Origin: Rosa chinensis
Taxonomy: Eukaryota > Streptophyta > Magnoliopsida > Rosales > Rosaceae
Assembly (NCBI RefSeq): GCF_002994745.2
Contig: NC_037094.1
Coordinates: 6,432,001 to 6,496,000, forward strand
Direction of reading: 5' to 3'
Length of the DNA stretch: 64,000 nt
The notes beneath the pieces are model-generated. The model did not search any database. It saw only the letters and a list, made by a program, of their open reading frames with translations, and was not told the origin of the DNA. This document shows, piece by piece, positions 25,265 to 49,853 of this stretch (positions are counted from its first letter, which is position 1; each line of letters opens with the position of its first letter). Both the position numbers and the translations under genes were made by a program.

Positions 25265-28106
25265 ATGAGTGATCCGAGCGACAAGTTAGCGTATTTCCAA
25301 GCGATCACGGGTCTTGAAGACTCCGATTTGTGCGTCGAGATCCTCACCGCCCATGGCTGGGACCTCGAGCTCGCGATCTCCTCCTTCACCACCCCCGAGA
25401 ACCACACCCCTCCGCCGCCGGAGAATCACGCCGCCGGCACCTCCTCTACTGTCTCTGACGCCGGCGAGGCCTCGCAGTTCGTTTCTCATTCCGGATCGCC
25501 TCCGAACGCCGCGGTGGCTCCCGGGCTGGTCTGGAGGGTGATTACTCTGCCGATTTCGGTCATTTCCGGTGGTCTAGGGTTGATTTCCGGCGCGATTGGG
25601 CTTGGTATGTGGGCCGCGGGAGGCGTGCTGTCGTACTCGCTCGGGATGATTGGGCTGGGCCCGGGCCGGGGAGGCGAGGGCTCGGCGAGGTTAGTGTCGG
25701 TGTCGGCTGTGGCGACGGAGGCGATGGAATTCGTGGCGAGTTTCGAGAGGGATTATGGGACGAGGGGCCCGAATTTCGTGAGCGAAGGGTTTATGGAGGC
25801 GTTGCAGAGATCGAGGAACTCGTTCAAGCTGTTGTTTGTGTACTTGCACTCGCCGGAACACCCCGATACGCCGTCGTTCTGCGAGAGGACTCTGTGCTCC
25901 GAGGCCTTGGCGGCTTATATCAACGAGAACTTTGTGTCGTGGGGAGGGAGCATTCGGGCCAGTGAGGGATTCAAGATGAGTAACAGTTTGAAGGCCTCGA
26001 GGTTTCCTTTCTGTGCAGCTGTAATGGCTGCCACGAACCAGAGGATTGTGCTGCTTCAGCAGGTATGTTACCATTGAAGCTCCATGAGTTTAATTGTTGA
26101 TAGTTTGGCTTTATTGTTTTAAAGTTGGGGTTAATATCATATCACTGAATTGAAAGCTTGTCGGTAACTAATGGGAAATCTTGGAGTATAGTTTAGTTCT
26201 ATCAAGGGGTTCAAGGTCATTTGGTGATGAACAAGAAGATGGAGGAATAGAGTTTATATCATTTTAACTTCTGAAGAAATGTTGTGAGGAAGTTAGAACT
26301 AAAGGTTCCTTGGCTCTATAGAGGGTCAAAGTTCTCATCACTTGTGGAAAGAATACATTTGACTCATTTATATGGTTGGTTTCTGTTGCTCATAAATGAT
26401 TGCATTGACCTGTCGGTATTAGCAATTGTAAAGTCATGGGGTAGAAACAGCGATTGTGTAGTGTCTTTAAGTGTCATGGGGTAGAAAGATCTGTCGCTTT
26501 TGCAATATGACTCTTTTTTCCTTGCAATGTGTTTCATGCCCAAGTTGGATAGTGAGTACTGGTAGCAGAACAATGATAGTTTGATAAAGTGACTGGTATT
26601 AGTGAATGTTGGAAATGATGGCAACCATCTGTAGTTTAGATTTCTGGTTCTTCTTCTTCCCCTTTATTTAATTTTATTGATGCATATTACTTTCATTTTC
26701 CCTTTGTTTTCATTTCTAATGATTTCTAATGCTGTTTTGAATCTCAATTTTTATAGATGTTTATTGGTTTTTGTTGTTTTTTGTTTTTTTCCCACTAAGA
26801 CTTCAATGTGTATAGTTGGGCTAAACTTGAAGTTAGAATAGATTCTGTTGGAGGGAATAGAGGCCAAAAGAAATCTATAATGTATAACTATTAGGAAAAA
26901 GTTCTGCTATGAAATTGAAGGTGGTGACTGTTCAATGTGATCTTTTCATGATTGCATGACAATGTGTGAATTCTGCTGACACTGCTCTTGTTAATTGGTG
27001 GTCCGTTATGATTAAATGTTTTCTGAACTTTAGTTTTTTTAGGATTATGTTAAGCTTAAGCATTAGAAGATCTCTTTTTGATTGCCTAGCAAAAGGGTTG
27101 AATTATGTCAGCTACTGGTATATTTGTGTATTTGGAGGGTTAATTTATCTTTCTCATGTTTTGCAGGTTGAGGGACCAAGATCTCCTGAAGAAATGCTTT
27201 CAGTACTGAACAGAGTGGTTGAAGAAAGTGCTTCTGTTCTTGTTTCAGCGAGGCTTGAGGCAGAAGAAAGGAGAAACAACATACGTTTAAGGGAGGAGCA
27301 GGATGCTGCTTATAGAGCAGCACTCGAAGCTGATCGAGTATGCTAATAGTTAATCTAGGTTTTATTTTTTGTTTTCTTTTCAATAATGAAGTATGTACTC
27401 CCTTTGCCCTAATGTTATCATTCTTTGGTCAGGCAAGGGAAAATCAGATGAGAGAAGAGCAAGAACGCCTGGAAAGAGAAGTTGCTGAAGCTGAGAGGAA
27501 GCGTAAGGAGGAAGAAGAGGCTCGTGAGAGAGAAGCACGTGAAGCTGCTGAGAGAGAAGCGGAACGAGCTAGGATACGTCAGGAGAAGGCCTTGGCCCTT
27601 GGTGCTGAACCAGAGAAAGGACCTGATGTTACACGAGTAATCCCTCTTGCCTCAGATCTTAAGCATTTCTTATTACTAATGCAGCAAGTTCACTTTGGTT
27701 ATATCAAATTTATTCTATCTATAATTTTCACGCTCTTATCAACTGTGAAGGCATCATTTACCAGAACTCTAGGCATGCACTTACTGTAGTGGTTGCATGT
27801 TCCATGCTTCTGCGTTCATTATTGTAATCATAGATAATAGTTCTCCAACCTAATCAATGTTATTTGGCAAATCAGGTTTTGGTGAGGTTCCCAGCCGGAG
27901 AACGCAAGGAAAGAAGGTTCCACCGTACCACTACAATCCAGTCTCTATATGATTATGTTGACTCTTTGGGTTGCTTGGACGTCGATGATTACAGTCTGGT
28001 CTCTAACTTTCCCCGGGTGGTATATGGTCCAGAGAAGGCCAACTTAAACTTGAAAGAAGCAGGGTTGCATCCTCAAGCCAGCCTTTTTGTGGAGCTGAAT
28101 TCTTGA
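25265..28106 (+). CDS. PUX10: PUX10-type UBX-domain CDC48 adaptor (FAF2/UBXD8-like)
   Basis: Four exons join in frame to 467 residues: 25265-26062, 27167-27337, 27433-27636 and 27876-28106. The domains in order are: a UBA-like helix bundle (about 6-42, KLAYFQAITGLEDSDLCVEI), a hydrophobic hairpin (about 88-131), a UAS thioredoxin-like domain (about 140-300), a charged coiled coil rich in Glu and Arg (about 315-385), and a C-terminal UBX domain (about 389-466) with the CDC48-binding loop SNFPR. This is the layout of Arabidopsis PUX10, which recruits CDC48 to lipid droplets via the hydrophobic hairpin for turnover of ubiquitinated oleosins. Function here is by homology. Length is close to the family's. 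The first exon is strikingly GC-rich compared with the rest. Confidence 0.93.
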
Positions 28107-29676
28107 GTACTTGAAAACGCATCAAAGTATTGATATCAAAGTTAGTAGACAGATTGAGACCTGCAAACTGCTAGTAGGGTACTTTTGTTTTGCTTCTCTA
28201 TAGTACGATCCATTTTGTTAGAACGATATGACGAGGTAAGATAGATACAATTTGTGTCTAATGTGGATGGGTAGTTTCTTTCAATGCAAATTCTTTCGTG
28301 CAAGCGACCCTTAAATGCAAGCGGGGTTTGAAATGAATAATGATACCGACTGTCGATTGAAAACTCAAATAAGTTTTTTTTACCATTCGTTTGATCAGTG
28401 TGAAGTGGTTCAAACTTCAAAGTACGGTTGGTTTCTGATGCTTGGTCAATTATGCAACAACAATACTAGAATGAAATGAAACGTGGAATTTCTGATGTTG
28501 AATTTGTTGGACTTGCATCATGCCTCCATCTACCTACTCCAATTTGCAAGTCCAACAAACAGGAGCCACATTTCTACAAAGCTTATATATTAAAAAAAAA
28601 AAATTACTAAAAACAATGGCTTCGCCCGGGTTCGAACCGGAGACCTTCAGTGTGTTAGACTGACGTGATAACCAACTACACCACGAAACCAAGTGACAGT
28701 TAGTGCCTGAATGTAAATAGATAGCCTGTATGTAAATACATGCTCTCTTCGTATTTCATCAAGTTACGAGTTACCTTTCATCAATATTTTGCGCTAATTA
28801 CCTTATTTATTTTTATTCCATCATAATAGTCTTGCATTTTAAAATTTCTGGTTGCACAGTGGTAGCATACCAATCTAACTACCAAGTGAGATTGACAACT
28901 TAAAAGTAGGTCATATTCACTTATAAAGTGAAAATGATTAAAAAAAGAATCTTAACTTTATTAAAAGAAAACTTAATAATTAATCGAATAATTGGATACT
29001 TACAACAACTTAAAATAATATTTAATATTAGCACACATGTTAAAAAACAAAGACGTTGAAGTTTGAACACTCCGATAATTAATTACACATATTTACCACA
29101 AACACTATCAAAAGTCTTAGATGAAAAAAAAATAATCCATCGGACATTTCAATTAATCAAAAACAATATAATCTTTAAAAGTTGAAACCGTAAAGAATCG
29201 TAAATAAATCTAGAATAACCTACTCTAATCTTAACTCCTACTCAATAGAATCCTTGACAGATACACTCTTTATCATTGAAAATATCAGGTCAATCTTGCT
29301 ACATCAAATTCCACCTTTCAAGGACAATTCAAATTAGTTAAATATGGATAAATATCTAACCAAAAATATAAAATTAATTATGGAAAATCCAATAAGCCAA
29401 TGTTTTAACCTCTCCACCAATTCATAAATAAAAAATTAGATGTTTCAAAAAAAAAAAAAAAAAATTTAGATTCGAGGCTTCCAGCTCCACAACAACGTGA
29501 ATCTTGTCATCGCGGTAAAGTCCAGGCCTTCCTCTCCAAATCAAAATCCGTATTTGACCCCAATTCACAACCCCTGGGGTTTCATTTCCTCTCCCTCCTC
29601 CGTCTCCGTCGCCGTTTCTCCGCCGTCAAATCCCTAATTTTGCCGAATCGGCGATCCGAAAGATGCAGAGAGCGCC
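28107..29676. other. Intergenic, AT-rich, contains tRNA-Val
   Basis: Apart from the tRNA at 28617-28690 I see no gene. 28107-28500 is probably the PUX10 3' UTR. About 28800-29460 is very AT-rich without recognisable repeats. From about 29480 the DNA becomes GC-richer and leads into the WNK leader. Confidence 0.5.
28617..28690 (-). tRNA. tRNA-Val (anticodon AAC)
   Basis: The minus strand folds as a full cloverleaf. The acceptor stem is GGTTTCG with CGAAGCC (one G-T pair), the D arm contains box A (TGGTGTAGTTGGTTA), and the anticodon stem TCAGT/ACTGA encloses the loop CTAACAC (anticodon AAC). The T arm is CCGGTTCGAACCCGG (box B). There is no intron. The discriminator is A (28617) and CCA is not encoded, as normal for a eukaryote. 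Downstream on the minus strand lie T runs (within 28591-28616) that would serve as a pol III terminator. Confidence 0.95.
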
Positions 29677-29886
29677 ATGGCTGAGTCTGGGGTAGATTTG
29701 ACGACGTGGAGAAGCTCAATTCCGAACGGGACTTCGGATATGGCATTGTGCTCCCGCGACACGTGGTTCATCGGCTGCCGGTTTCGTCTCCGATCGGCGT
29801 TCGACTCGTATTCCGTTGCCTGTGAGGCGTTTTCTGAACACCGTGTTCGTCTGATTCCGGCCGCCGTTAGAATGAAGCTGCTCTGA
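29677..29886 (+). promoter_or_regulatory. Upstream ORF of 69 codons in the WNK leader
   Basis: An ATG at 29677 opens a 69-codon frame that ends with TGA at 29884-29886, 74 bases before the WNK start at 29961. It does not overlap the main frame. The first residues (MAESGVDLTTWRSSIPNGTS) match nothing I recognise. If the transcript begins upstream of 29677 (likely from the GC/CT-rich leader from about 29560), ribosomes would meet this frame first and WNK translation would depend on leaky scanning or re-initiation. Conservation is unknown. Confidence 0.45.
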
Positions 29887-29960
29887 TAGTTTGTGTTTTC
29901 TGCGAGAATCGTTTTTTTCGTCTGAAAGATTGTTTCTTTTGGTTGGAATTTTGTTCGAGA

Positions 29961-32342
29961 ATGGATTTCTGTGCTGGATTGGTTGGTGTGAAATCTGATT
30001 CTGATTTTGTGGAGGAAGATCCCACTGGGAGATTCTTAAGGGTACCATTTTTCGGAATTTTGGAAATTCAATTTCTGTTTATAAATATATAGATGTATGA
30101 TATTGGCATTTGGGATTTTGTTGGATTCGAAATTATGTAATTGGTGCTTGTTTTTGTGTTTCAATTTTCACAGTCTGATGAAATCTTGGGGAGGGGAGCA
30201 TTCAAGACTGTGTATGCTTTTCTAGCCGTATCTTGCATTGGGTTCTTTTGTAGCTAAGATTGTAGCTTTCTAAGAGTTTTTTTTGATTAGGTTGCGAATT
30301 TGTTTGTTATCTTATTTGTATGGTGTTTCGAAATGTGTAGATATAAGGCTTTTGACCAAGTTGAAGGTTTAGAGGTGGCATGGAGCCAGGTGCATGTTGA
30401 GGATGTGTTGCAGACCCCGGAGCAACTCCAGAGATTGTATTCGGAGGTGCATCTGCTGAAGTCGTTGAAGCATGAAAATATTATCAAGTTCTGTAACTGG
30501 TGGGTCGATGATAAGAACAAGACCATCAACATTATCACAGAGTTGTTCACTTCTGGGAGCTTGAGGCAGTGAGTTACTTTGACTCTTTTAACTGTTTCAT
30601 AGTTCGTGTTTTTAGCTGGATTCTATTAGCAAATGGTATTCATTGGTTTATTGGATGTAGGTATCGAAGGAAGCATAAATGCGTTGAATTGAGGGCCATC
30701 AAGAAATGGGCAAGGCAGATTCTTCGAGGCCTGCACTATCTGCATTCTCACAATCCTCCAATTATTCATAGAGATTTGAAATGCGACAACATATTTGTCA
30801 ATGGAAATCAAGGGGAGATTAAAATTGGAGATCTTGGACTGGCAATAGTCATGCAGCAGCCTACTGCCCATAGTGTGATTGGCACTCCAGAATTCATGGC
30901 TCCCGAGCTTTACGATGAGGAATATAATGAATTAGTCGACATCTATTCTTTTGGCATGTGCATGCTAGAAATGGTGACTTGTGAATACCCTTACAATGAA
31001 TGTAAGAATCCCGCCCAGATTTATAAGAAGGTTACTAATGTAAGTTTCTAATGCCATGCATTATGAATTGCTTCCGTACTTGTCAATTTCTAGACGGTGA
31101 ACTAAGTTTTCGCCTAACTTCCTTTGCTGCAGGGCATAAAGCCTGCTTCACTCAGTAAAGTGAGTGATCCTCAAGTCAAGCAGTTCATAGAGAAGTGTCT
31201 GGTTCCAGCATCAATGAGACTACCTGCAGTGGAGCTCTTGAAAGATCCATTCCTTGCAATTGACAATTTGAAGGAGATTACTTGTGCTCCATTGGGATCA
31301 CACAATTTGATGCCCGTGTTACTGAACACGGCACAGCCTGAAGCTCGTCCGATGGATGTAGATGCTAACTACCAGAAGATTTCTGCTGGCTCTTGCAGAA
31401 AAAGTGTTGATGCAACTTCCATCTCATCCAACCCCTCAGTTCTGGAGTTACAGAGATTCACAGAGAATAATGCTTTCACTTTAAGAGCAGAGAAAAATGC
31501 TGATAATACCATTGCATTGACTTTGCGTATTGTTGATCCATGCGGTAAGTATATCTGTGATGCAAAAAGGTTAATTTGTTTCCCTTATTTTCATGATCTG
31601 AAACTGAATATTATTTGGTCATACAGGTCATGGTAAAACTATCCATTTTGAGTTCTACCTCGATTCGGATACTGCAATTTCAATTGCAGGGGAGATGGCT
31701 GAGCAACTTGGTCTTTCAAATGATGATGTCTGCGTAACAGCTGAGTTAGTTGATAGCTTGATTATGAAGCTTGTACCCAGCTGGAAACCTACATCTGAGA
31801 GTTCATCATGTGGAGCAAATAGTTCATGTGGGGATCAGCGTGTACGTCAAAACGGGTGCCCTTGGGGTTCCGCGTTGGTCAAGGCTGCATCAATGATTTC
31901 AGATATCTCAGCCGAGTATGGCACCACTACTGCCTCAGATGCCACTAAGGTCAAAATTCTAGAATCAGACAAGTACAGTTTTGATGACTGCTATGAAGGT
32001 TCAGATGGGTACGGTTCCAGCCCAGATTGTATGATTCTTGGTCATTTTAAGCAGAAGAATTATGAGGATAATTTTGGGGATTCTCTCGTGATGAATGACT
32101 CAGCAATGAACTCTACTATCTGGAGCCCTAATAGATCAAAAACTTATAGCTTATCAAGCATTTGTTCATTGTTTGAGTTGTCTCTAATGGAGAAACATCC
32201 AGACGATGGGTTAAAAGTGGAGCTGGATTCAATTGATCTGCAGTTTCATCACCGTTTTCTTGTGCTCTTGAAGATGAAGGAAGAGGCAGTACAAAGTGCA
32301 AAGAAGAAGTGGATAGCAAAGAAGAAAATGGGTGTCAACTAA
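29961..32342 (+). CDS. WNK8: WNK8-like serine/threonine kinase
   Basis: Six exons join in frame to 617 residues: 29961-30041, 30174-30211, 30341-30568, 30661-31039, 31133-31544 and 31627-32342. The WNK hallmark is clear. The ATP-anchoring lysine sits in subdomain I (GRGAFKTVY, Lys38), and the usual subdomain II lysine is absent (EVAWSQV). The catalytic loop is HRDLKCDN (152-159, Asp154), and DLG (173-175) replaces DFG as in plant WNKs. The APE equivalent is [11 protein letters not shown]. After the kinase an OSR1-C-like domain (about 352-430) is followed by a Ser-rich region and the conserved C-terminal helix ([19 protein letters not shown]). In Arabidopsis WNK8 acts with RGS1 in sugar and G-protein signalling and phosphorylates a V-ATPase subunit. 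Assignment to WNK8 rather than WNK9/10 rests on overall resemblance. Confidence 0.93.
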
Positions 32343-32996
32343 TATACATATTAGATATTCTTTGCAAGGGTGGTTTTTTCTTTTCCCATTGTTTGTTTTC
32401 TATACTAGAGTTCAAGTGTGTCATTTTTTAAACTCCGGCAAAATCAACTATGTCTGCCGTTAGTATCATTTCATTTATTGACAGTAGCCATCCGGTGAAT
32501 TTATACTACCGAATTTTTTTCTACAACCTTTTCCGAGACTTTCCCCCCGAGAGTCAATTCTCTTACGTGACATGCAATTTTTACCCTCTTCTTAACGTGG
32601 TAATTCTGTGTATTGCATCTATGGTAGAAGATTGTGTTTTATAGTTAAGTAACGCCCAAAATATCCCAAATCATTTGTGATTGTATGTGACTGTTGCACA
32701 CCCAATTCACGTGACAGCATTGTTGTTTGGCCATAGAGTATAGAAGTAGAAGATAATTGTTGAACTCTACTACTGTACGGCAGAAAAAATTAGACCATAC
32801 TCTGGAAATTAGGAGCCAGTTGACCCAACTCACTGCCTGTACTCCTCTTCTGCCTCACCTGCACTCGGAGCCTTAAACTGCACCGGATGAAATTCGAGGC
32901 TGCTTTGTTAATCGAGGGCTTTACGAAACGGTATCACTTTTATCCTTGTCTGTTTATCTAAGGTTGTATTGTTTGGTGCCGTTAACTGTTGCAGTT
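32343..32996. other. Spacer between WNK and RPW8-NB gene
   Basis: Holds the WNK 3' end and the upstream DNA of the next gene. I see no further coding or repeat. Confidence 0.5.
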
Positions 32997-35900
32997 ATGA
33001 CGTCTCTGGCTCTAACCTTTCTGGGAGGAGCTCCTTTTCAACTGCTGTATGAAGGCGTTAAGATAGCTATTCGCAAAAGTAACAAGTTTAGAACTTACCT
33101 CGAAAATCTGGAAATGACGCTAGGCTGTTTGCAACCATGGATCATTCAACAGATAAGAGCAAATAATGTGCAGCTGAATCTCCCAAACAATCTGATACAA
33201 GATCTTGAAATAAAAATGGAGGAGGGCTAAGAGCTGGTTTACAAGTTATCAAGGCTTGGCGTTTGGAACATCCGTGTCTGGGGAAATTGCTACAATTGTA
33301 TAAAGCCTAATTACGCAGACCAACTTGCTGAATTGGACAGATCTCTTAGATTACTATTGGAAATACTAAAGCTGGAGGAAATGAGGAATGTTCAGGAGAA
33401 CTTACTATTGGGGAGGAACCACAGTGACAAACAAGATGATTTGGACAAAAAAATGTCTGAGTTATTGAAAGTGCATCAGGAAGTTCTGAAAGCGCAGAAA
33501 GAAATGTTTGATATGATGAGAGTGCAGCATGAGGCTGTACATGAGGCAATGCAGAGAATTAGAGCTGATGCTGTGCAAAATGTGCAAGGAGAAACTGCCC
33601 CTGCTCCAGCTCCAGCTCCAGCTCTAAGAATAGTATTTTGGGTGCTGTATGATGTTGTTATACAAGTGAAGGTCAAGAATATAATGTGTAAACGCCTCCT
33701 TCAAGAATTCAAATCCACGCTCGACTTCTTAAAACCACTGATAGAAGAAATGGCAGAAAGTAACAAACTATTGCATCTTCCAGAGCAGGAACAAGAGAAG
33801 TTTATTATTCAAATGAGGGAGGGTGTCGAGCTCATTGGCAAGTGCTCCAAGGTTAGCAAGTGGCATAGTTACAAAAAGTATGCATGCACCAACAAACTTC
33901 TTAAATTAGATGAATCTCTCCGGGGGCTATTCCATAAAATGAGTATGCAGATTGCAATCCATGTGAAGGAAGGTTTGATTTCGATAAGTAGTATGGAGGC
34001 AATGATCAAGAAAATTGAAGAGAGTGGTGTGATACAAAATCAAAGTCAAGTTGTACTCACTAAACCACAACCTCCACTGCATGAAGCTGGATTGGATGTT
34101 CTGGATACGCATGGAAGTAAGGATGTGGAGGGAACAGGAGATGATTTAAATGAGAAAGAGGTTGGCGTGAAGCAAATTGGAAGAGATGGTACGAGACAGA
34201 ATGAAAAAGAGATTGAAGGTTTGAGTGAAGTACCTGAAAATTCATCCCCTAAAACTACATTGGATGTGCAAGGAACAAAGGATATAAATGAGTCACTAGA
34301 TTCAGAAAGTGTACATATAGCGCAGACCAAGCAAAGTCAAGGGACAAGGATGGTTGAAGCTCCAGTTGCTGAGTCATATAAATTTCCATTCCTTATGGTT
34401 GAATCGGATGTGTATTTGAGGGAATTAAAGAAGAAGATTTTTGAGGATCAGGTGGCGATGCTTGTGATTACAGGTCCAGCAGGATGCGGGAAAACCACAC
34501 TGGCAAGAATGTTTTGTGAAGATCAGGAGGTCAAAATGAAATTCAAGAATATTTTCTTTGTCCATGTTTCAGAAAATCCCAGATTGGATTTTATTGTCCA
34601 ACAACTATATGAACAAAAGGATTCAGTGGTACTTGAGCTGCAAGAAGATGCAGTTAACTGGCTGCAACAGTTTCTAAAGGAAACAGGAGGAGACCCTTCG
34701 TTGTTGGTCTTGGATGATGTTTGGTCCGGATCAGAATCTCTTCTTGATAAGTTTGATGGATTAAGAACTTCAATGCACAAGATTTTGGTGACATCAAGAT
34801 CTGAATTTCCACGATTTGATTGTTATCTAGAAAACCTAAAATCACTGGATGATGAAGAGGAAATGGCTCATCTTAAGGGAAAGGTAATTTCTTAGTTTCC
34901 ATTATACAACATATGTGCTTAATTATAGCCCTAACAAAGGGTGAAAAGATATGGGGAATTCCCGCACATTAAAATACTCGATCAAAGCCAGTTGAACCTC
35001 AGAGGCCTCTTGCTTTGTTTTTTCCTTTTCATTTGTATATTGTGTTCATTTTTCCATTAACAATTTGTTCATTTTCTTCCAGGTGACAATGTATGGTTTT
35101 GTTATCTATGTTTCTTTTTTTTCACCTTATTCATCTCATTGGCCACTACTATGCGAATTATAAATTGTTCATCAACATGTTCAATTTCTGGATACAAAGT
35201 GGTATCCACATGTTGGTTTTCTGGTAAATCAATCCTTTTGCAAATGTGTTTTGATCCGGTCTTAAAAATCTAATATTTGGCTTAAAAACTAATATAATAA
35301 TTTTGTGTTGATATGCATATCTCTTTATAGCAAAGTTTAGGATTAAATCACTCATGTCCTAAGTGTATAAGAACTTTTTGAACATATACGAATCTGTAAA
35401 CAGAGCACATACATTTCACATGAAAATGCAACTGAATTAGAAGCTTCTTGAGCTATTCATTAGGAGTTTTGATTATCTGATCATTCAGTGAGATATCTGT
35501 AGCTTCTTAAGGTGACATGAAAAAATTTCTTGTAGAGTATAAAGTCCTTACCTTCTTTTGCAGAATGAATTGTTCTGCAAAAATAATGCAATTTCATATT
35601 TTGGATTTCGTTAATAGCTGAAATTATCTTATTTGGGAATTTGGTTATTTAATGCTGCATTCAGGTCGTGGCGGCCGTGAGAGCTACAGGGGACTACCCA
35701 GAAAGAGTGGGCAAACCTATATGTGAGGTATGCTGATGTTTTGTGATGCATTTAAGGATTGAAAATTGGCATTTCTTCCCTGGTCTTCACAATGTGACAG
35801 TAACATCAACTTATGGCATTTGTTGCTTGATGTCCAGTATTATTTAAAGACTGGGACCTGTAAATTTGGTCCGTCCTGCAAGTTCCATCATCCGAAACAG

Positions 35901-37357
35901 GGAATTGGATACTTGAGCTCTTTGTATGGACTGACACAGCTATCTTCTCCCACCCATGCCCTTGAAAGACCTTATACCTCTGTCGTACCATCATCAGTTG
36001 GCCCTTCTAGCAGCAGCCCAAATGAACAAGCCTTCCCAGAGAGGCCTAGAGAACCTGAATGCCAGCATTACCTGAGAACTGGATACTATAAATTTGTACC
36101 CTCATGTCGGTACCACCATCCTCGAGATCAGATTGCACCAAGGACAAATTGTCTCCTCAGTCCAGTTGGTCTTCTTGGCAATTCAGGTATGTATGTTATT
36201 TGTTGCATACATTGGTGATATATCTTCTATTATTTTGTAGAGTTGATATATTAATTGCCTTCTCAAATCTGTAAACGACGATCTCTTACAGGCTCTAATG
36301 CTTGGCCTTCATTCAGTCAAGTGTCATTGTCAATGGAAGATTTTCAGACGTCTTTGGATTTGAAATTGAATGCTCAGCATAGCCTTCTCCAGACACCAAT
36401 GTCACCTTGTGTATCCATAAGTCGAAGAATAAGCAGCAATGACAAGTCCAGTCAGTCAGATGTAGAGGATAAGAGTGAGCTTGATGAGATTCAAAGCCAA
36501 ATTTCAGGTGTCACTGTTCCGGAGTCTCTACATGATCCACTTGAAAGTAAAGATCAATGTCCAATGAATGTGAACAACACTTTGGAATATGCAGCTTCAG
36601 GGACAACTCCGAATTCAGTTAACGTTGATGGTCAGTCTGTTACTTGTAACAGCAGTAAGTGTATAAACTACTTCGTTCAATTAGTCAATGTCAATAATTC
36701 TGATCATTCAGAGCTAGCTCCACATGTATTTTAATCTCCATATATCTCATGCTTCACGATTTGGTTGCAACTTGTGTGTTATAGTAGGTGAGATTGGAAG
36801 CATATCACAGAAGCAGGGAGTTAAAGAAAAAGTTGCATTTAGAACAAAATCAGAGATCGAGATATTGGATGATGGATTCAAATGGAGGAAGTATGGGAAA
36901 AAATTTGGGAAGAACAGCACAAATCCAAGGTATAGCAAATTAACAACACCAAATGCAAATAAATACAATTTACAGCGAAGACTAGATGCAGGCTAGATAG
37001 CTACAGACCAAAAAAATAAAAGCTAGATAAATTGCTGATACATATGTAATCTCATCATACTATCATTACTATGTTGATTGCAGGAATTACTATAAGTGTG
37101 CATATGAAGGCTGCCCAGTGAAAAAGAGAGTTGAAAGAGATGGACAAGATCCAAGTTATGTAATTACGTGTTATAACGGGGTTCATAACCATACAAGCCT
37201 TGGCAAAAGAACCCAGCGAGTACCCGCCAGCCACCCTCAACCTCTCCCTTTTCCCCTCCCTATAGGGAAGGAAGAGAGCTTTACGTTCGATCATCTTGCA
37301 GACGATAATCAGGAAGAGAGCGTTCTGTTCGATCATCTTGCAGACCATATTCAATAA
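32997..37357 (+). CDS. Chimeric RPW8-RPW8-NB-ARC-CCCH-WRKY resistance gene, one internal stop
   Basis: The exon chain 32997-34883, 35665-35727, 35838-36186, 36292-36654, 36788-36929 and 37084-37357 keeps one frame through five GT/AG introns, for 1026 codons. Exon 1 alone encodes two RPW8 domains (about 1-160 and 215-340, separated by a Pro/Ala run), a linker and a partial NB-ARC. The NB-ARC has a P-loop (GPAGCGKTTLAR, about 493-504), kinase 2 (LLVLDDVW, about 569-576) and an RNBS-B-like ILVTSRSEF. GLPL, MHD and leucine-rich repeats are missing. The RPW8-NB pairing marks the helper-NLR (RNL; NRG1/ADR1) class. The CCCH and WRKY parts are described separately. An in-frame TAA (33228-33230, codon 78) interrupts RPW8 domain 1. 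The first later in-frame ATG is at 33381. The locus may be a pseudogene, an expressed truncated form, or have a sequencing error. That it is one transcript is inference from phase matching. Confidence 0.6.
33228..33230 (+). other. In-frame stop codon in RPW8 domain 1
   Basis: The frame reads MEEG, TAA, then ELVYKLSRLGVWN. The paralogue at 48894 reads MEEGVKLVAKLSSVGIWN at the same place, so the family's reading continues on both sides. No GT/AG pair was found that would cleanly remove the stop while keeping the domain. Confidence 0.9.
34884..35664. other. 781-bp intron or gap between NB-ARC and CCCH exons
   Basis: The sequence begins GTAATT and ends GCATTCAG, so it can be an intron in phase 0. 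It contains no coding segment resembling the missing NB-ARC parts (GLPL, MHD) and no transposon ends that I recognise. Confidence 0.55.
35665..36186 (+). CDS. CCCH zinc-finger exons (ZFN1-like), partial and internally placed
   Basis: Exons 35665-35727 and 35838-36186 encode a fragment of a ZFN1-type CCCH protein, with TGDYPERVGKPIC joining YYLKTGTCKFGPSCKFHH across the intron. Finger 1 is intact (C-x8-C-x5-C-x3-H). Finger 2 (ECQHYLRTGYYKFVPSCRYHH) has Tyr where the second Cys belongs, so its zinc site is incomplete. ZFN1 proteins normally have five fingers and their own N-terminus. Here the first and last fingers and any start codon are absent, and both ends fall at splice sites. That is why I treat these exons as part of the upstream gene rather than a separate one. 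CCCH fingers bind RNA or DNA. A role as an integrated sensor domain is inference. Confidence 0.75.
36292..37357 (+). CDS. WRKY domain exons, WRKYGKK variant (group IIc, WRKY50/51-like)
   Basis: Exons 36788-36929 and 37084-37357 encode KVAFRTKSEIEILDDGFKW, then RKYGKKFGKN, then the zinc site C-x4-C-x23-H-x-H (YYKCAYEGC, VHNH). The intron splits the domain after NPR, the usual place for group IIc. WRKYGKK replaces WRKYGQK, as in WRKY50/51, which act in salicylate/jasmonate crosstalk and PR1 control in Arabidopsis. The preceding exon (36292-36654) encodes a Ser-rich segment of unknown origin that links CCCH and WRKY in matching phase. The tail after the WRKY domain contains a repeated DHLAD motif. 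If the upstream fusion is not real, this would be a WRKY gene lacking a clear start. Confidence 0.85.
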
Positions 37358-37707
37358 TTAGTGTTCATCTTCCGGACAATATTGAACAAGTAGTGCATGC
37401 TCATCTTGCAGGCCATATTGAATAAGTAACATTCTTATATTATATACTGCTACTAGCTTGTGAATTTGGAAGGACTTGCAAATATTTGAAATTTTCTTTT
37501 TTTGAATTTCAATTGATTGATGTCCTAATGGTATCAGGATAGAGCAGTAGCTCTATACATATAGAAGAACAATACATTTGATTATATAGAGATTCTTATA
37601 TAGGGCAAATGTACCACGTGTCTGGTAGGGTTGTCCAATGACCAATCAATGAATATGCACGAGAAAAATATTTTAATAAGTAAAAATAGTTTCATTAACT
37701 TTCTCCC

Positions 37708-37913
37708 TGTTGTAGAGAAACTGAAATTGAGAGGAATTTACTGTATATTCTCATTGATAATATATAGAGGATTACAATGCATAGAATCTCAATCATACAA
37801 GGAAAGTAATCGTACATTGAATATGAATCTAGATCATTCTAATTTAACCCTATTACCACTAGGGCAAGTAACCTAGAGTTTGGGCCAAACACAAGTTAGG
37901 ATTTACTTGAACA
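37708..37913 (-). repeat. 3' LTR of the copia element
   Basis: 206 bp. Matches 46374-46591 apart from about eleven substitutions and a missing 12-base piece (aggggcctcttt-like). Confidence 0.93.
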
Positions 37914-38105
37914 CTCCCCCTTGTGTTGCCCAAAAGCGGTGCTTCTCTCGTTGCCTTGTTAAAAACCTTGCCGAATAACAAAAACCCAGTGGGACAAAAA
38001 TAACCTCGATCGAAGGGGAAAAAGAGCACAACACACCCTTCACGATTCGAGACGAACATGTAGACATCTCCCCCTGATGTCTGTGCCTCTCCCTGATGAC
38101 TACGG

Positions 38106-40244
38106 TCATGGGAGTTCAGATAATTTCCGCAAGCCAATTCTTGCCACATGTTTCTCGAACGTGGATTTGGGCAATGACTTAGTAAACAAGTCTGCCACAT
38201 TGTCCTTAGATCGGACCTGGTTCACTTTGATCTTGAGGAGCTTCTGTTGTTGCTGATTGTAGAAGAATTTAGGCGATATATGCTTGGTGTTGTCACCTTT
38301 GATGTAGCCTTGCTTCATTTGTTCAATGCAAGCAGCATTATCCTCATAAATGCTTGTTGGCTCATCTGTGGTAGACTTCAGACCACAATTGCTTCGAACA
38401 TGCGTAACTATGGACCTAAGCCATATACATTCACGAACTGCTTCGTGAAGAGCAATAATCTCTGTATGATTCGAAGAGGTAGCGACTAAGGTCTGCTTTG
38501 TAGACCTCCAAGATATCGCGGTCTTTCCCACGGTGAAAACATAACCAGTTTGGGAGCGACCTTTGTGTGGGTCAGAGAGGTACTCAGCATCAGCAAAACC
38601 TTCCAAAACACTTATATCATTTTGGGATGGGGAGAGGGAACGCAGTCCACCATACGTGGCGTCCCTGACACTAGATGGGTCCGAATCCATCTTTTCTCTA
38701 TAGGGATAGAACAAGCCCATATCAATCGTACCACTTAGGTATCGAAAGATATCTTTAACACCAGTCCAATGACGTCGTGTTGGTGCAGAGCTATATCTAG
38801 CTAGCAAGTTCACAGCGAATGAGATATTTGGTCTTGTGCATTGTGCTAAGTACAATAATGCGCCTATTGCACTTAGGTAGGGCACTTCTGCCTCTAGCAC
38901 TTCTTCGTCGTCATCTTTTGGACAGAATAGATCCTTCTTTGGATCAAGACTACGGACGACCATTGGGGTGCTTGAAGGCTTAATCTTGTCAGTGTTGAAA
39001 CGCCTAAGCATCTTTTGGGTATAAGCTAATTGATGAATCAGGATACCATCTCTACGGTGCTCAAGTTCTAAACCGAGACAAAACCGTGTTTTCCCAAGAT
39101 CTTTCATCTCAAACTCGGATTTCAAATGTTCAACGGTTTCCCTTAACTCTTTAAGGGTGCCAATTATGTTCATGTCATCAACATAAACCGCTACTATTAC
39201 AAATCCGAAACTTGTCCTTTTTATGAACACACATGGGCATAGTTCATTATTGACATATCCCTTTCCAATCAAGTAGTCACTTAGACGGTTATACCATATC
39301 CGTCCAGATTGTTTCAATCCATGTAGTGAGCGTTTTAATCTAATTGCAAACACACTCTGTGGTTTAGAGCTATTTGATTTAGGTAACTGAAGTCCATCTG
39401 GGACCTTTATGTATATTTCCGTATCTAGATCCCCATATAGATACGCTGTAACCACATCCATTAGCTGCATGTTCAGTTTTTCAGAAACTACCAAACTGAC
39501 AAGGTAGCGGAACGTTATGACGTCCATTATGGGAGAATAGGTCTCCTCGTAGTCGATTCCAGGGTGTTGTGAGAAGCCTTGCGCCACAAGTCGAGCTTTG
39601 TACCTTACAATCTCGTTTTTCTCATTACGCTTTCTAACGAATACCCATTTGTGACCAACTGGTTTGGTGTTGGGCAGTATTGGTACAACATTGCCAAATA
39701 CCTTTATTTTCGCTAGAGAATCAAGTTTTGCCTGGATCGCATCTTTCCATTTTCGCCAATCAGCTCTACGTTGGTATTCATCAACCAAGCGTGGTTCGAT
39801 ATCATCAATCTCAATAATCTCACGCGCCACTGAATACGCGAATACATCATCAATGATGATGGAGTTTCTTTCCCACGTCCCATGTACACTAATGTAATTT
39901 ACAGAGATCTCTACGTTCTCAGGGATAAGTTCTGACATTGAGGCGTCCCCCAATGATGTCTCTTGGACATAACCATAATCCGGAACATTCTCATGGGACG
40001 GATTTTGAGTATCGATGATCAAAGGATTTGTTTGTGCCTCATTCGCTTTCTTTCTAGGGCGAGTATCCTTCGAACCAATCGGTCTACCGCCCTTCCTTGC
40101 GGGACCTGCGGCCATAGACGCCACATCATTGCCATTCTGGTCAATGGCGCCATCTCTTGGTGTCACAGGAGTGGCGTTATGTCCATTATTTGGGACATCA
40201 ATCCTTGCAGGCACGTTTGCAACAGGTATGTGTGATCTCGTCAC
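38106..40244 (-). CDS. Copia reverse transcriptase and RNase H
   Basis: An unbroken 712-codon minus-strand frame. It has RT fingers (WKDAIQAKLDSLAKIKVFGNVV), the copia motif MDVVTAYLYGDL, the catalytic YVDD (in VAVYVDDMNIIG), and an RNase H domain with GFADAEYLSDPHKGRSQTGYVF and YEDNAACI. It is the C-terminal part of the copia polyprotein. Homology continues upstream past this ATG to about 40385 with a TAG stop in between, so it is a fragment of a longer ORF rather than a separate gene. Confidence 0.95.
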   Translation of the reverse strand: MTRSHIPVANVPARIDVPNNGHNATPVTPRDGAIDQNGNDVASMAAGPARKGGRPIGSKDTRPRKKANEAQTNPLIIDTQNPSHENVPDYGYVQETSLGDASMSELIPENVEISVNYISVHGTWERNSIIIDDVFAYSVAREIIEIDDIEPRLVDEYQRRADWRKWKDAIQAKLDSLAKIKVFGNVVPILPNTKPVGHKWVFVRKRNEKNEIVRYKARLVAQGFSQHPGIDYEETYSPIMDVITFRYLVSLVVSEKLNMQLMDVVTAYLYGDLDTEIYIKVPDGLQLPKSNSSKPQSVFAIRLKRSLHGLKQSGRIWYNRLSDYLIGKGYVNNELCPCVFIKRTSFGFVIVAVYVDDMNIIGTLKELRETVEHLKSEFEMKDLGKTRFCLGLELEHRRDGILIHQLAYTQKMLRRFNTDKIKPSSTPMVVRSLDPKKDLFCPKDDDEEVLEAEVPYLSAIGALLYLAQCTRPNISFAVNLLARYSSAPTRRHWTGVKDIFRYLSGTIDMGLFYPYREKMDSDPSSVRDATYGGLRSLSPSQNDISVLEGFADAEYLSDPHKGRSQTGYVFTVGKTAISWRSTKQTLVATSSNHTEIIALHEAVRECIWLRSIVTHVRSNCGLKSTTDEPTSIYEDNAACIEQMKQGYIKGDNTKHISPKFFYNQQQQKLLKIKVNQVRSKDNVADLFTKSLPKSTFEKHVARIGLRKLSELP

Positions 40245-40399
40245 TTTGGCAAAATCAGAAAATGCATCAGGCAGAGTGTCTGCTACGTTCTAGAGCTCGA
40301 TTATTCTTCGCACTTCAAGTTCGGACTGTGTGGTATGGGGATCGAGATAAGACATAGTGGGGACGGACCACGACAATTCATGTCGTTCCTGTTGAACAT

Positions 40400-42425
40400 A
40401 TGTGTTTGATTTGAGCATTTTTCATTCGCCTATCGCGTAACAATCAACACGGTCATCAAAGATGGGAAGTATTTACGTCCCGGTTTATCGTACCTCGGGG
40501 ATTATGAGCTAGCTAAGAATCCTATGGTTCTAGGTCACCGAAAATCACTTGCACAAACAAATAAAAATAGAAAAAATGCTAAACAAGACACCGAGCCTCA
40601 TTCAAGCATAACTTTGCATTACACAAAGTCACATAGACGGCCTTGCACCAAGCAAGGCCTAGATAGGGCCGTGAAACACACAAAAGTGTTTTTAATGCTC
40701 ACGCCCACATGGATTTATAAATGAATGGTAGTGGGAAAGTCACAATGTTTTTTTTTGGATTTTCAGAAATGATAAATAAACTAACAAACTGCGACATAAA
40801 AATAAGATAGATAGAAGGATGGGATGCATTGCATCAAGGTCACCATGGAAATTCAAGGTTTTCCACACAAATCTAAAATCACATGGAATGATGATGATTA
40901 ATTCAAATGATGCTTCAAATTTTTTGTCGGATTTCCATTTCGCATTAAGAGGTCAAAAAGAAAGCTAAATTGATTGTCATAAAATAGTAGTCAAACCCTA
41001 AACAAAAACAAGAAGAAGAAAGAATACTTAGTTTTTGGCTACCCTATACTAGTCTCAAACCTTATGCCTTGTTAGGGCCATAAGTGTTCAAAACTAAAGG
41101 CTTTAGGTTTCGACAATCGATTGTAACACACTCTAGCAACCATCACCACAAATAATAAGGTCGAAAATAGTATTTGTGATAACAATTACCCTACCCAACA
41201 ATTCCGAATACTATTCCGACAATCAAGGGTAATAATACTCAAAATTGGGTGACTAGAGAACCACAATCTAAGAAATCCAAATGGAAATAGAGAAATGTAA
41301 TGGGCAAATTCCACCATACTCATGCCATAATCTAAATTGAAATATAAATTCTCCAATTTAATATTCCAATTCCAACACACCAAACATAGATTAAGGAGGG
41401 GAAAACCTAAACCATACATCTAGAGTGAAGAAATTAAAGTAAGAGTACACAAATCATATGAATAAACATCAATTTTATTAATTCCTCAACAAAACCATAC
41501 AAAACTAAACTTGGGTTTCAAAACCCTAAAACCATGAGAGGTCACACACAAATATATATCAATACACATCAAACAACACCATAAGAAAGAAATAAGAGAG
41601 AGAAAGAAGAGGGAAAGAGAGGAGAAATCCATGAAATTTAAGGCAAAGCTTGTCACTAGCTATTGCCATAACTTCATGGCTTCTCTTGCTACCCTTATGA
41701 AGCCATGGTGTAGAGATGGTGGCCTAGATACCGGAAATGTGTGTGCCTCCTCCTTTTGCAAGCTTACATGTGAAGAATGGGGGATGAAGAAGAGAATAAG
41801 AGGTGAGAAGGGAGAGAAATCCCAAATTCGGCCAAAATGCCTAAGGTGAAGAAAAATGGGTCTTAAGCTTTTGAAATGTGTGTGCAAAGGTGCTTAAATA
41901 TTCCCTTGGGTTCAAGGGTCAAGATTAGACTTGTACCCAAGATCCAAGGGCTAAAAAATAAGTAGCAAAAGGGTAAAATGAAAAGACTAAAACAACCTAA
42001 TAAAAATGTAGAGAATTAGAAGTTTAGAAAATATTTTGGAAAATATAAACAAAATAGGAGGACAAAAGTGTAAGTGAGTGTGTGTCTAGTGTGAACACAA
42101 ATAAATATCTTCATCCACATGTGTGATGTGTGTGGTCCATTATTATTGTCATTATATCAATTTTGAATTTGAAATTTAAATACAAAGATGTATACAAATG
42201 GGCTTGAGTCTTCACTTGTGTACTTCTTTAGTCTTGGGCCTCGGACTTCTTACTATTGGGCCAAGTTGAGTCCTTTAGTCGAAAGTTGACTTTTTGCTCA
42301 AATTCACTCTTTGTTTAATCTTTTCCCTCTCTTGACCATAATTTCCTACAAATGAAGAAAACAAAGTAATATTACGAAATAATGCTCGAGTATTCGCTAA
42401 TTTCAAGGTAATTAGGGCTAGAAAC
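40400..42425. mobile_element. Unidentified 2-kb insertion inside the copia polyprotein
   Basis: The copia polyprotein similarity stops near 42430 (after SLGADKNTDSH) and resumes near 40400-40440 (QERHELSW), so about 2 kb of foreign DNA splits it. The insert is AT-rich, with no transposase or RT similarity and no clear terminal repeats. It starts and ends near cgcctatcgcgtaacaatc and attcgctaatttcaagg. A short palindrome, acacacgtaaatcgtgtgt, sits at its right border. The exact borders are uncertain. Confidence 0.55.
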
Positions 42426-43600
42426 ACACGTAAATCGTGTGTGAATCAGTGTTCTTATCTGCCCCTAACGATGGGAAGGCTGTCTCATCAAAGTGACAAT
42501 TCGCAAATCTAGTGGGAAAAAGATCGCCTGTCAAGGGTTCAAGATAGCTGACGATGGTTGGAGATTCATATCCAACATAAATGCTCATTCGTAGTTGTGG
42601 ACCCATCTTAGTACGCTGTGGCGGCGTAATAGGCACATAAATGGCACACCCAAAAATGCGTAGGTGCGAGATATCAGGCTCGTACCCAGTCACTAGCTGT
42701 AACGCAGAGTAAGATTGGGTTGCAGTGGGTCGTAGACGAATTAGCGTCGATGCATGCAATATTGCATATCCCCAAGCAGAAACAGGGAGATTGGTGCGTA
42801 TAACCAATGTCCGCACTATCATCTGTAGTCGTTTGATAGCGGCTTCTGCGAGACCATTTTGGGTATGAACATGGGGAACTGGATGCTCTACATCAATCCC
42901 CAGTGACATGCAATAGTCATCGAATGTTTTTGATATAAACTGCCCAGCATTATCTAGTCGAATTGACTTAATAGGATGATCAGGGTAGTGATCCAATAGA
43001 CAGATAATCTGGGCGAGGAGTTTAGCATAAGCAGCATTTCGAGTGGACAACAGCGCGACATGTGACCAGCGTGTCGACGCATCAACCAATACCATAAAGT
43101 ATTTAAAAGGTCCGCATGATGGTTGAATTGGTTCACAGATATCCCCTTAGATTCTCTGTAAGAACGGAATGGGTATTTTAGGATCCTTTGTGTAGGACGG
43201 TCTCGGTCCTAATTTTCCAAAGGAACAGGATTTGCAAAATGAGCGAGGGGCCTTAGAAGCAACCAATGAGAATTTTGATTGGGCCTGAGCTTCTGTAGCG
43301 CTATTAGAAGCAAAGTGTGCCTAAACATCTCCCATCATGGAATTAGAGCCATGAGAATTGGTGTGTGTGGCGTCATGGCCACGAGGAGAGGCAACCATGT
43401 CGTCATGCTCATGGTTGGCGCCATTGATGTCGTCATCACATAGGACTTGGGCAGGCCTATGGCTCCCCAAGACGGCTGCAGCGCCAGAAGCTGCAATTGT
43501 TGCTGTCTTGCTAAGTCCAAGAATCAATTTTTGATTCTTGCTTCTACTCACTCTGAAGAATGGATGTCTGTGTGAAGTCTTTAGTATACGGAGCATTATA
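42418..43600 (-). pseudogene. Copia GAG-pre-integrase and integrase, broken
   Basis: On the minus strand, GHPGRDIMLRILKTSHRH and CKSCSFGKLG correspond to the pre-integrase and HHCC region. MVLVDASTRW...IRLDNAGQF...HTQNGLAEAAIKRL is the DDE core. Stops interrupt the frame near 43321 and near 43147. The C-terminal part is cut by the 2-kb insertion. Confidence 0.85.
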
Positions 43601-43785
43601 TCACGACCAGGATGCCCTAGTCGGTCATGCTAAAGCCAATATGTGTCTGAATCCAAGAGATCTTCTCTTATGACATTATTGGATGCAATTGGTCGAATTG
43701 TAGTGACATAAAGTCCACTAGATTGACATATAAGCTTCTCTAAGATGCGATTTAGTCCGCAATCATTAGAGGTAATGTAAAGGAA

Positions 43786-44073
43786 CTATTTTCCGTTCTC
43801 ATTATGCGTTTCCGCATGAAATTTGTTGGCTCTTATATCTTTAAAGCTCAATAAGGTTCGATTTGTCTTAGGAACGTAGAGAGCTTTAGTGACTTTAATC
43901 AAGGTGCCATTTGGCAATAGGAATTGGGCCATTCCATGTCCTTGAACTAAACCTGATGGCCCAGCCATCGTAGTCACAGAGGAATATGTAGGAAACATCT
44001 CTAAGAATAATTGCATATGTTGTAGAATGGTGTGCGTAGTCGCACTATCCGCAAGACATTGTAGTTCATCCAT
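43786..44073 (-). pseudogene. Copia protease segment
   Basis: The minus-strand frame has the aspartic protease site region LADSATTHTI followed by LPNGTLIKVTKALYVPKTNRTLLS, characteristic of copia protease. It is separated by a frame break from gag and by further breaks from integrase. Confidence 0.8.
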
Positions 44074-48345: not shown

Positions 48346-48893
48346 GTTACTTTTTAGTGATTTGGAAAACTCTTGTAAAATAGAAAGGCCTATGTATCGA
48401 CTCTCAACTTAATCATAAATTTCTTGTTATTTTTCAAGGTCTTTTTATGTTTTGATATTAGTTAATTTCTGTCTCTGCCACTCAGGTCATCTATATGTCT
48501 ATTTGACTGATGAATTAATTTGACATTCGATTTACAGTTTTACACGCGTTCTATCCAAAAAAATAAAAAGGAAGAGAATATATAAATTCAGTTGGGGCTC
48601 GCTATATGATAAAATATTTGGATGTCACATCGCTCTCTGGTCATCATCTTATCTTAGCCATTACGCATAAGCCATACACAAACCCAATCTATTACCTATA
48701 GAATGACCGGACAAGTATGTACAATTACTTAAACTGCGAAGTAACGTGACCGTCTCTTCTTTGATATCTTAGCCATTACGAAATGGGCCACGTCTGGGTC
48801 CCCTAATCTCTTACTTAAAAGGAAAGGGAGGCCATTGCTCAACAGCCGAACCATCGAGCAAAACTGGTTTGAATCCAAGTCAAAGTCATAGCT

Positions 48894-49853
48894 ATGCCGG
48901 CCAAGCTGATCGGAGGACCGCTGTATAATCAGCTTTTTGATGGTGTTAAGACAGCAACAGGCAGGAGTACAAAGTTCACCTCCCTCCTCGAAGATCTCAA
49001 ATTCACGCTAGTCTCTCTGCAACCACGAATCAATCGACAGAGAGGAGATCAGCACGATGCGGAAATTCATCATCTCCTTCCAAATGAGGAAATACAAGAT
49101 CTTGAGCGACAGATGGAGGAGGGAGTGAAGCTGGTTGCCAAGCTATCAAGTGTTGGAATATGGAACTACCACTGCATGAAGAGTAACTACTCCGACCAAC
49201 TAGCTCAATTGGATAGGTCTCTCAGAAAAATGTTATACATACTCAAGCTGCAGGAAGAAAGAGATATAATGGAGCTCTTGCTTGTTGCTAGGACAATACG
49301 CGACAGACAGAATGTTTTGGAGAGAAGACTGTGTGGTTTACTCAAAGTGCAGCAGGAGAAAACCGATGGCAATGGTCACGTCGGCAGCGGAGGAGGAGGA
49401 GGGGCTGGTCGGGAGCTGGAGCATGTATTTTGCCGTCTACTTGAATCCCTTGTTTTGGAAGTTTATGTACAATTGAATGGGAAAACGAGGTTCAGTCCCG
49501 TCTTGGCAGATTTGAAATCGACGGTTAGGTCCTTCCAACCACTCATGGAAGAAATATCAGATTATAACAAGTTATTGCATCTACCGAAGGAGGAACTAGA
49601 CAATTTGAGGAAGCAACTGGAGAAAGGTATCGAGCTGGTCGACAAGTGCTCCAAGGTTCCTCAAGGGGCGAGCTACAAAAAGTATGAATACGCCGACGAA
49701 CTACTTGAGTTGGATGACTATCTTCAGAGATTGTTGTGTATGATGAGGGAGCAGGTAGCAAAGGATTTGAAGGAGACCTTGGTTTCTGTAAGCAACATGG
49801 AGATGATGTTAACGCGAATTGAAGAGGGTAGTAGTGGTCTGGCACAAAATTAA
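48894..49853 (+). CDS. Tandem RPW8-domain protein, no NB-ARC
   Basis: An uninterrupted single exon of 319 residues. It contains two RPW8 domains, about 4-135 (LYNQLFDGVKTATGRSTKF, ending CGLLKVQQEK) and about 170-315 (FCRLLESLVLEVYVQ, ending MEMMLTRIEEG), joined by a Gly-rich linker. It is the closest relative in the window of exon 1 of the chimera at 32997 (shared QMEEGVKLV / KMEEG, CSKV, YADxLLELD patterns), but stops before any P-loop. RPW8 domains form helical bundles that target membranes and trigger cell death in Arabidopsis. Whether this copy is a stand-alone RPW8 gene or a truncated RNL is open. The DNA after the stop shows no NB-ARC coding. Confidence 0.88.
   Translation: MPAKLIGGPLYNQLFDGVKTATGRSTKFTSLLEDLKFTLVSLQPRINRQRGDQHDAEIHHLLPNEEIQDLERQMEEGVKLVAKLSSVGIWNYHCMKSNYSDQLAQLDRSLRKMLYILKLQEERDIMELLLVARTIRDRQNVLERRLCGLLKVQQEKTDGNGHVGSGGGGGAGRELEHVFCRLLESLVLEVYVQLNGKTRFSPVLADLKSTVRSFQPLMEEISDYNKLLHLPKEELDNLRKQLEKGIELVDKCSKVPQGASYKKYEYADELLELDDYLQRLLCMMREQVAKDLKETLVSVSNMEMMLTRIEEGSSGLAQN

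Follow-up and report, generated by a model that had tools for sequence, protein, structure and literature searches.

A probable RPW8-RPW8-NB-CCCH-WRKY fusion lineage in roses, interrupted by a premature stop in the Rosa chinensis reference genome

Within a 64,000-nucleotide stretch of Rosa chinensis chromosome 7 (NC_037094.1, positions 6,432,001 to 6,496,000 of the forward strand in a genome of 515 Mb; this stretch is called the window, and its own positions are used throughout), we analysed a plus-strand gene whose six coding exons (32997..37357) encode two RPW8 domains, a truncated nucleotide-binding (NB) domain, a CCCH zinc-finger part and a WRKY domain. The explanation we prefer, to which we assign a probability of roughly 60%, is that a tandem-RPW8 gene derived from the NRG1-type helpers was cut after its NB exon and joined to a C3H32-type CCCH part and a WRKYGKK module. 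The product would be a nucleotide-binding leucine-rich repeat receptor with integrated domains (NLR-ID) that lacks leucine-rich repeats (LRR) and acts as a bait in roses with an intact copy, the full-length product having been lost in the R. chinensis reference. This reading is supported by a four-domain gene model in Rosa rugosa, by even identity between the two species, by a splice donor resembling that of RPW8-type NLRs (RNLs), by the position of the CCCH part among Rosaceae C3H32 proteins, and by the many partners found in the family.

The splice sites and phases of all six exons are consistent (Table 1), and the exon limits 34883/35665 and 36186/36292, proposed earlier by a reading made from the sequence alone (the sequence-only reading), turned out to be correct. 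The RPW8, NB-ARC, CCCH and WRKY domains that it had named all have Pfam matches; only the first RPW8, cut short by a TAA, lies under the curated cut-off when scored alone (24.5 bits vs 30.4). One continuous frame from 32997 to a single stop had also been claimed, and this does not hold, since the in-frame TAA at codon 78 (33228-33230) breaks the first RPW8; we therefore rejected a single open frame from 32997. Downstream of this stop, exons 1-6 splice in a single frame to the stop at 37357. NLR part and foreign domains share one frame in the predicted R. rugosa protein, whereas the TAA interrupts it in R. chinensis, and an intact fusion gene in the R. chinensis reference genome is not supported.

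Table 1. Features of the fusion gene and of a tandem-RPW8 paralogue in the window
Feature	Position	Strand	Evidence or remark
Start of exon 1: first RPW8 up to premature stop, 77 aa	32997..33227	+	Pfam RPW8 E 2.3e-5, profile 10-75; 75/77 identities with R. rugosa P0122 1-77
In-frame TAA, codon 78, within first RPW8	33228..33230	+	not in R. rugosa orthologue
Second RPW8, intact	33618..34010	+	Pfam E 1.9e-21, profile 7-138
Truncated NB-ARC: P-loop, kinase-2, RNBS-B	34416..34805	+	Pfam E 1.8e-15, profile 5-138 of 248
Exon 1	32997..34883	+	ATG 32997; donor AAAG/GTAATT, phase 0
Intron 1	34884..35664	+	first 60 bases similar to post-NB-exon intron of canonical paralogues
Exon 2, C3H32-type fragment begins, phase 0	35665..35727	+	
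Exon 3, finger 2 fused to finger 4 (C3H32 type)	35838..36186	+	Pfam zf-CCCH, two stretches
Exon 4, linker	36292..36654	+	in frame; 116/121 aligned residues identical to R. rugosa
Exon 5, WRKY N-terminal half (WRKYGKK)	36785 or 36788..36929	+	TAGTAG acceptor gives both starts
Exon 6, WRKY zinc half, C-terminal extension, stop	37084..37357	+	Pfam WRKY E 1.9e-22 across exons 5-6
Tandem-RPW8 paralogue, no NB or partner detected	48873..49853	+	Pfam RPW8 E 2.4e-35, two stretches; tblastn

With the sequence beyond the stop as query, a protein search retrieved the R. rugosa locus LOC133745360, isoforms X3 (P0121) and X2 (P0122; P and L numbers are our labels for proteins and loci), at 95% identity and 95% query cover. 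The search of relatives for RPW8, NB-ARC, CCCH and WRKY in one model, which the sequence-only reading had proposed, thereby found its case: the predicted protein carries RPW8, RPW8, NB-ARC, CCCH and WRKY in the same order and frame and with the same junctions as in R. chinensis, and because of this agreement the fusion is supported as a real gene lineage, beyond chance. Isoform X2 begins at the start of the R. chinensis copy and has no stop at codon 78, and X3 starts 39 residues later. The two also differ at the exon 4/5 junction, where X3 fits the first TAGTAG acceptor (36785) and X2 the second (36788), a match that hints at read support behind the R. rugosa model. With the stop scored as a difference and residues 149-206 left out, identity between the species is even across seven segments, at 93.0-98.5%: RPW8a 143/148, RPW8b 132/134, the linker after RPW8b 112/116, the nucleotide-binding domain (NBD) 160/172, CCCH 129/137, exon 4 as given in Table 1, and WRKY 81/86.

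Besides the stop, the R. chinensis copy lacks one zinc-ligand cysteine that R. rugosa has in CCCH finger 4, and its C-terminus runs 52 residues beyond the R. rugosa end, which closes right after the WRKY domain. By eye, short repeated units (FDHLAD..) are present in this extension and just 3' of the stop (37255-37430). As the codon-78 stop lies upstream of five introns, the reference allele would give a 77-aa peptide and a message subject to nonsense-mediated decay, which is expected because five exon junctions follow the stop in the spliced transcript; the sequence thus predicts that the R. chinensis reference no longer makes the full-length protein. The stop, the damaged finger 4 and the extension would also suit a chance by-product of RNL cluster turnover that is now a decaying pseudogene without a function in roses, as would the damage at sibling loci (a stop in the second RPW8 of L011, a frame change in the first RPW8 of L012) and the retroelement pol pieces just downstream. 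Against this, the predicted R. rugosa protein runs through 972 residues without a stop and retains an intact finger 4, P-loop and set of WRKY zinc ligands, and the frame and junctions of all six exons have been preserved since the divergence of the two roses. We consider such a relic rather unlikely, although for the R. chinensis copy it is compatible with the reading we prefer.

The NB-ARC domain ends after RNBS-B, and the gene contains no GLPL, MHD or LRR. Measured against an RNL, it has the N-terminal RPW8 (the second copy in R. chinensis, two stretches in R. rugosa) and is missing both a complete NB-ARC with GLPL and MHD and a C-terminal LRR. A tblastn search with the ARC2-LRR part of P0147, an LRR-bearing relative, gave no match in the 64-kb window at E<=1e-4, and a remnant LRR nearby was rejected on this result. 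The proposal of an LRR-less RNL-type protein carrying CCCH and WRKY domains is supported for the lineage, as predicted for LOC133745360, and is not supported for an intact gene in the R. chinensis reference, where the premature stop intervenes. The best sequence match of the NB part in PDB is At5g66900 (8yl6_C, E 1.4e-31), which we take to be an NRG1-type helper, and the NB exons of R. chinensis paralogues bearing At5g66900-like names stop at a GT in phase 0 (for L001 according to protein P0172, for L003 and L005 by analogy). In a donor-anchored alignment of bases 7-60, intron 1 scored 28, 17 and 18 against the introns of L001, L003 and L005, while introns 2-5 scored -14 to 6; shuffled sequences scored as high in 0, 19 and 12 of 2000 trials, respectively. 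Local alignment of the first 200 bases of the intron with the canonical introns (500 shuffles) exceeded the shuffled maximum only for L003 (43 vs 38), and stayed below it for L001 (34 vs 40) and L005 (36 vs 40). Because the likeness of the intron start lies near the donor, the exon-1 donor is most likely a native NRG1-type donor, and the breakpoint most likely falls within intron 1, shortly 3' of it. No direct or inverted repeats of at least 60 bases were found in 34880-46000, and Rfam gave no match in 29000-40000.

The origin of this donor also bears on whether there is one gene or two. Gene prediction might have merged a truncated RPW8-NB gene with a separate WRKY gene starting from the exon-4 methionine: exon 4 has an early in-frame ATG (SMEDFQTSLDL), the R. 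rugosa record is a prediction, and the relatives P0133, P0128, P0145 and P0244 stop right after the NB domain. Two such units would leave the CCCH exons without a start, since exons 2 and 3 contain no in-frame ATG, as the sequence-only reading had rightly noted. Moreover, the exon-1 donor looks native, no stop follows directly after the NB domain, unlike in P0133, and both R. rugosa isoforms join all the parts, so that we hold two transcription units to be improbable.

The CCCH part consists of a C3H32-type finger 2 running straight into finger 4; a C3H32-type protein has five CCCH fingers in order, of which the fusion keeps only these two. The R. rugosa finger-4 region is identical to F. vesca C3H32 at 73/86 positions, and finger 4 alone is closest to P0001 (94%). 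In a CCCH tree of 19 rows (support values in all trees are given as pairs), the fusion groups with Fragaria, Rubus and P0001 in a Rosaceae node (85/96) whose internal order is unresolved, and lies outside a clade of five Prunus, Malus and Pyrus rows (96/91). The CCCH part was thus likely captured from a C3H32 gene of the rose subfamily. The WRKY domain has, by sequence and Pfam, the WRKYGKK motif and C2H2 zinc ligands; we presume from the motif that it belongs to group IIc. By sequence it matches solved WRKY domains, best 1wj2_A (E 8.1e-23). This match, together with zinc ligands of finger 2 and WRKY that are intact by reading, could favour a nuclear regulator over a decoy, with CCCH and WRKY binding nucleic acid and the RPW8-NBD part controlling location or oligomerisation. 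However, the family also includes partners that do not bind DNA (kinase, F-box-PP2, Kelch), and WRKYGKK variants prefer sites other than the W-box; a regulator of this kind seems to us improbable.

We return to the bait that we prefer. An ancestral rose tandem-RPW8 gene of NRG1 descent would have been broken within the phase-0 intron that follows its NB exon. The donor of that exon would have been linked to a CCCH gene of the C3H32 type at one of its phase-0 exons, with the WRKYGKK module behind it. In the resulting RPW8-RPW8-NBD-CCCH-WRKY protein, whose anatomy is read from sequence, CCCH and WRKY may lure effectors whose targets are C3H and WRKY proteins, while signalling would fall to the two RPW8 bundles, either by themselves or via NRG1/ADR1 helpers. 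Because the usual nucleotide switch needs ARC and LRR, and would be impossible here, release or oligomerisation would have to proceed via RPW8 or NBD contacts. Modelling of R. rugosa P0122 with AlphaFold2 gave a poor result (mean predicted local distance difference test score, pLDDT, 46): both RPW8 domains came out helical and the NBD alternating, and nothing usable was obtained for CCCH or WRKY. We infer transcription, decoy role, RPW8 signalling and message decay alike, and an NLR-ID-like bait in roses with an intact copy is our best guess for the function.

Several points weigh against this reading. The truncated NBD and the decay in R. chinensis also fit a functionless relic; LOC133745360 is a predicted model only; and a fused R. 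chinensis protein record was not found among the best 120 of 1103, the best 120 of 128 and all 16 of 16 matches in our searches. Finger 2 alone is closest to Prunus (87.5%). The length of the 60-base stretch used in the donor comparison was picked after looking, and its significance is confined to the vicinity of the donor: over 190 bases, shuffles scored as high in 68 (L001), 586 (L003) and 351 (L005) of 2000 trials, a weak result for L001 and no significance for L003 and L005.

The fusion belongs to a wider tandem-RPW8 family. We assembled 126 proteins (the best 120 of 128 matches and six more; scoring was confined to the roughly 8000 candidates with most words in common), many of which are predicted models, some possibly chimeras. 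By our own RPW8 profile, 39/126 have at least two RPW8 domains of more than 60 residues, and the pair is adjacent in all but two of these (37/39; the others are P0154 and P0169). Named Rosaceae account for 35 of the 37 adjacent-tandem proteins, and among the matches listed no other named group has the adjacent tandem. A Pfam scan of ten proteins found tandem RPW8 in nine, the tenth (P0233) having one RPW8 and a kinase. Besides the tandem, the nine have NB+CCCH+WRKY, NB+HMA, SBP+NB+kinase, SBP+NB, two WRKY, NB only, CCCH+NB+LRR (in two proteins) or F-box+PP2. Precomputed domains add PF07887, PF20451 and PF20452 in P0242, and PF07887 with a kinase in P0245; we take these three to be CBP60-type domains.

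Other R. chinensis loci extend this list. At C1:61.94-61.97 Mb, tandem RPW8 is joined to Kelch without an intron in two genes: L012 (95-2805) encodes RPW8b together with Kelch in a single open frame of 832 aa and shows a frame change in the first RPW8, and L011 (298-3018) has tandem RPW8 and Kelch with a stop within RPW8b. At L015 (333-3081, C2:14.38 Mb), a frame with two RPW8 domains has a phase-0 GTAAGT donor, and 163 bases on a DUF677 frame has a phase-0 acceptor, a possible further fusion; joining at a phase-0 donor is thus seen in the fusion gene and possible at L015. At L016, a U-box kinase, a possible partner, starts about 2.2 kb downstream. Two LRR-bearing tandem-RPW8 NLRs, P0147 (R. 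chinensis) and P0153 (R. sericea), have a C3H32/34-type CCCH finger between RPW8b and NB-ARC, by which CCCH appears to have entered the family at a second site. A second C3H32 capture was rejected for P0147, because the best matches of its insert are mixed C3H proteins at about 57-65%; we claim for it only a C3H32/34-type finger with no closer assignment. The RNBS-B motif is present in 20/35 proteins, of which P0147 and P0153 alone continue into ARC and, by Pfam, LRR.

In a tree of 44 modules (36 proteins and eight rose loci; P0135, P0136 and the single-domain P0149 left out), the partners are scattered and 29/39 inner branches are starred. F-box-PP2 occurs at two places, in P0148 beside the NB-only P0145 and in P0243 with P0246 elsewhere, so that it was either gained twice or exchanged. 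In a tree of the separate domains (67 rows, root not fixed), RPW8a forms one side of a branch (98/99); RPW8b forms one group except that the single-domain P0233, the b-type copy of the split tandem locus L017, lies inside (two changes needed), with the long-branch P0200 at the base. Because of this grouping, the RPW8 duplication probably occurred once, with the partners added later. We see about equal grounds for and against the broader proposal that this Rosaceae tandem-RPW8 offshoot of NRG1 is an integration platform: ARC and LRR would have been lost in nearly all members seen, and the front half repeatedly joined, often through splicing at a phase-0 donor, to immune-related or regulatory genes, turning a helper module into possible sensors. 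Its partners would be WRKY, double WRKY, SBP, HMA, kinase, F-box-PP2, CBP60, Kelch, CCCH and probably DUF677, and the R. chinensis fusion would be one product, with two partners in a row.

Three more same-strand tandem-RPW8 genes follow the fusion gene within about 65 kb, one in the window (Table 1) and two at L009 2017-3531 and L010 554-2596; two have no detected NB, and one has a truncated NB and an immediate stop (P0133). A protein-kinase gene on the same strand (29600-32342), presumably WNK-like, ends about 650 bases upstream of the fusion gene, and Copia-type pol pieces (RVT_2, integrase) lie downstream on the minus strand (38106-40289 and 42418-43146). Further Pfam neighbours in the window are an LHW-type bHLH (8313-9752), an ALMT transporter (13437-15487) and a UBA/FAF1-like protein (25175-26077).

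RNLs are best known as conserved helpers. A recurrent integration platform on a helper-type NLR would be surprising if true, though single examples are published; what would be new is a single clade that repeatedly attached a duplicated RPW8 module to kinds of protein that effectors target. RPW8 modules as sensors without ARC or LRR would become testable, and research on rose, strawberry, apple and stone fruit would gain a list of candidate baits. Among the best-ranked matches in open-licence papers, we recognised no description of RPW8-CCCH-WRKY or of a Rosaceae RNL integration clade. RNL-IDs are not in themselves novel: they are reported to make up <2% of NLR-ID genes, and 5.8% of RNL genes, the same share as of coiled-coil NLR (CNL) genes, to carry an extra domain, with Rosa multiflora among the species with most NLR-IDs and greatest diversity of integrated domains (PMC12787737). 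Published cases include RPW8 with kinase and IQ, RPW8-RPW8, three RPW8 with Peptidase_C48, and RNL-RNL (PMC5039405); NLR-WRKY and NLR-HMA genes in apple, and NLR-kinase genes in apple and strawberry (PMC4759884); strawberry R-genes with WRKY and F-box domains and a WRKY-associated NB-ARC subclade (PMC6778783); and strawberry R-WRKYs with TIR, NB-ARC and LRR (PMC9229891). Rosaceae and strawberry NLR counts are also available (PMC9685399, PMC11617207).

Among known systems, the NRG1-type helper At5g66900 is like the fusion in its NB part, the closest in PDB, and in the similar NB-exon donor region of its rose paralogues; the fusion differs in having two RPW8 domains, no ARC or LRR, and extra domains. 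The R. rugosa LOC133745360, an orthologue as judged by identity, differs from the R. chinensis copy in having no premature stop, an intact finger 4 and an end right after WRKY. DAR5, which has a single RPW8, is presumably AT5G66630. It appears in a table row as an NLR-ID with RPW8-like and LIM/DA1-like parts (PMC9528084), and AT5G66630 is described with RPW8, a fragmented nucleotide-binding site (NBS) and a zinc finger (PMC2893199). Like the fusion, it is an RPW8-type NLR-ID with a zinc-binding partner; unlike it, it has a different partner and arose independently in Arabidopsis. Apple has RPW8-RPW8-SBP-NBS-HMA and RPW8-RPW8-SBP-NBS-Pkinase genes, one each (Table 2 of PMC6643876), which share tandem RPW8, extra domains and no named LRR but have other partners, with SBP between RPW8 and NB. 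The unusual architecture claimed by the sequence-only reading stands for the exact combination, but RPW8 with other domains has precedents in DAR5 and in apple. RRS1/AtWRKY52 and the R protein-WRKY groups RW1-RW8 likewise combine NLR parts with WRKY (PMC4350883), and effectors bind the RRS1 WRKY at an interface involving WRKYGQK (PMC9528084). The RW groups draw on TIR, LRR, NBS and ARC and on WRKY groups I, IIb, IId, IIe and III; here Pfam finds WRKY (Table 1), but the R-protein domains listed for these groups do not include RPW8, the terms 'RPW8' and 'CCCH' being absent from the available text of PMC4350883. A parallel to the tandem-RPW8 family as a whole is offered by the major integration clade MIC1 of grasses, one NLR clade that has repeatedly taken up WRKY, kinase, Kelch_1 and other domains; there, grass NLRs integrate them after an LRR-cap-like motif, whereas here the receptors are RPW8-type and the LRR is mostly lost (PMC5819176).

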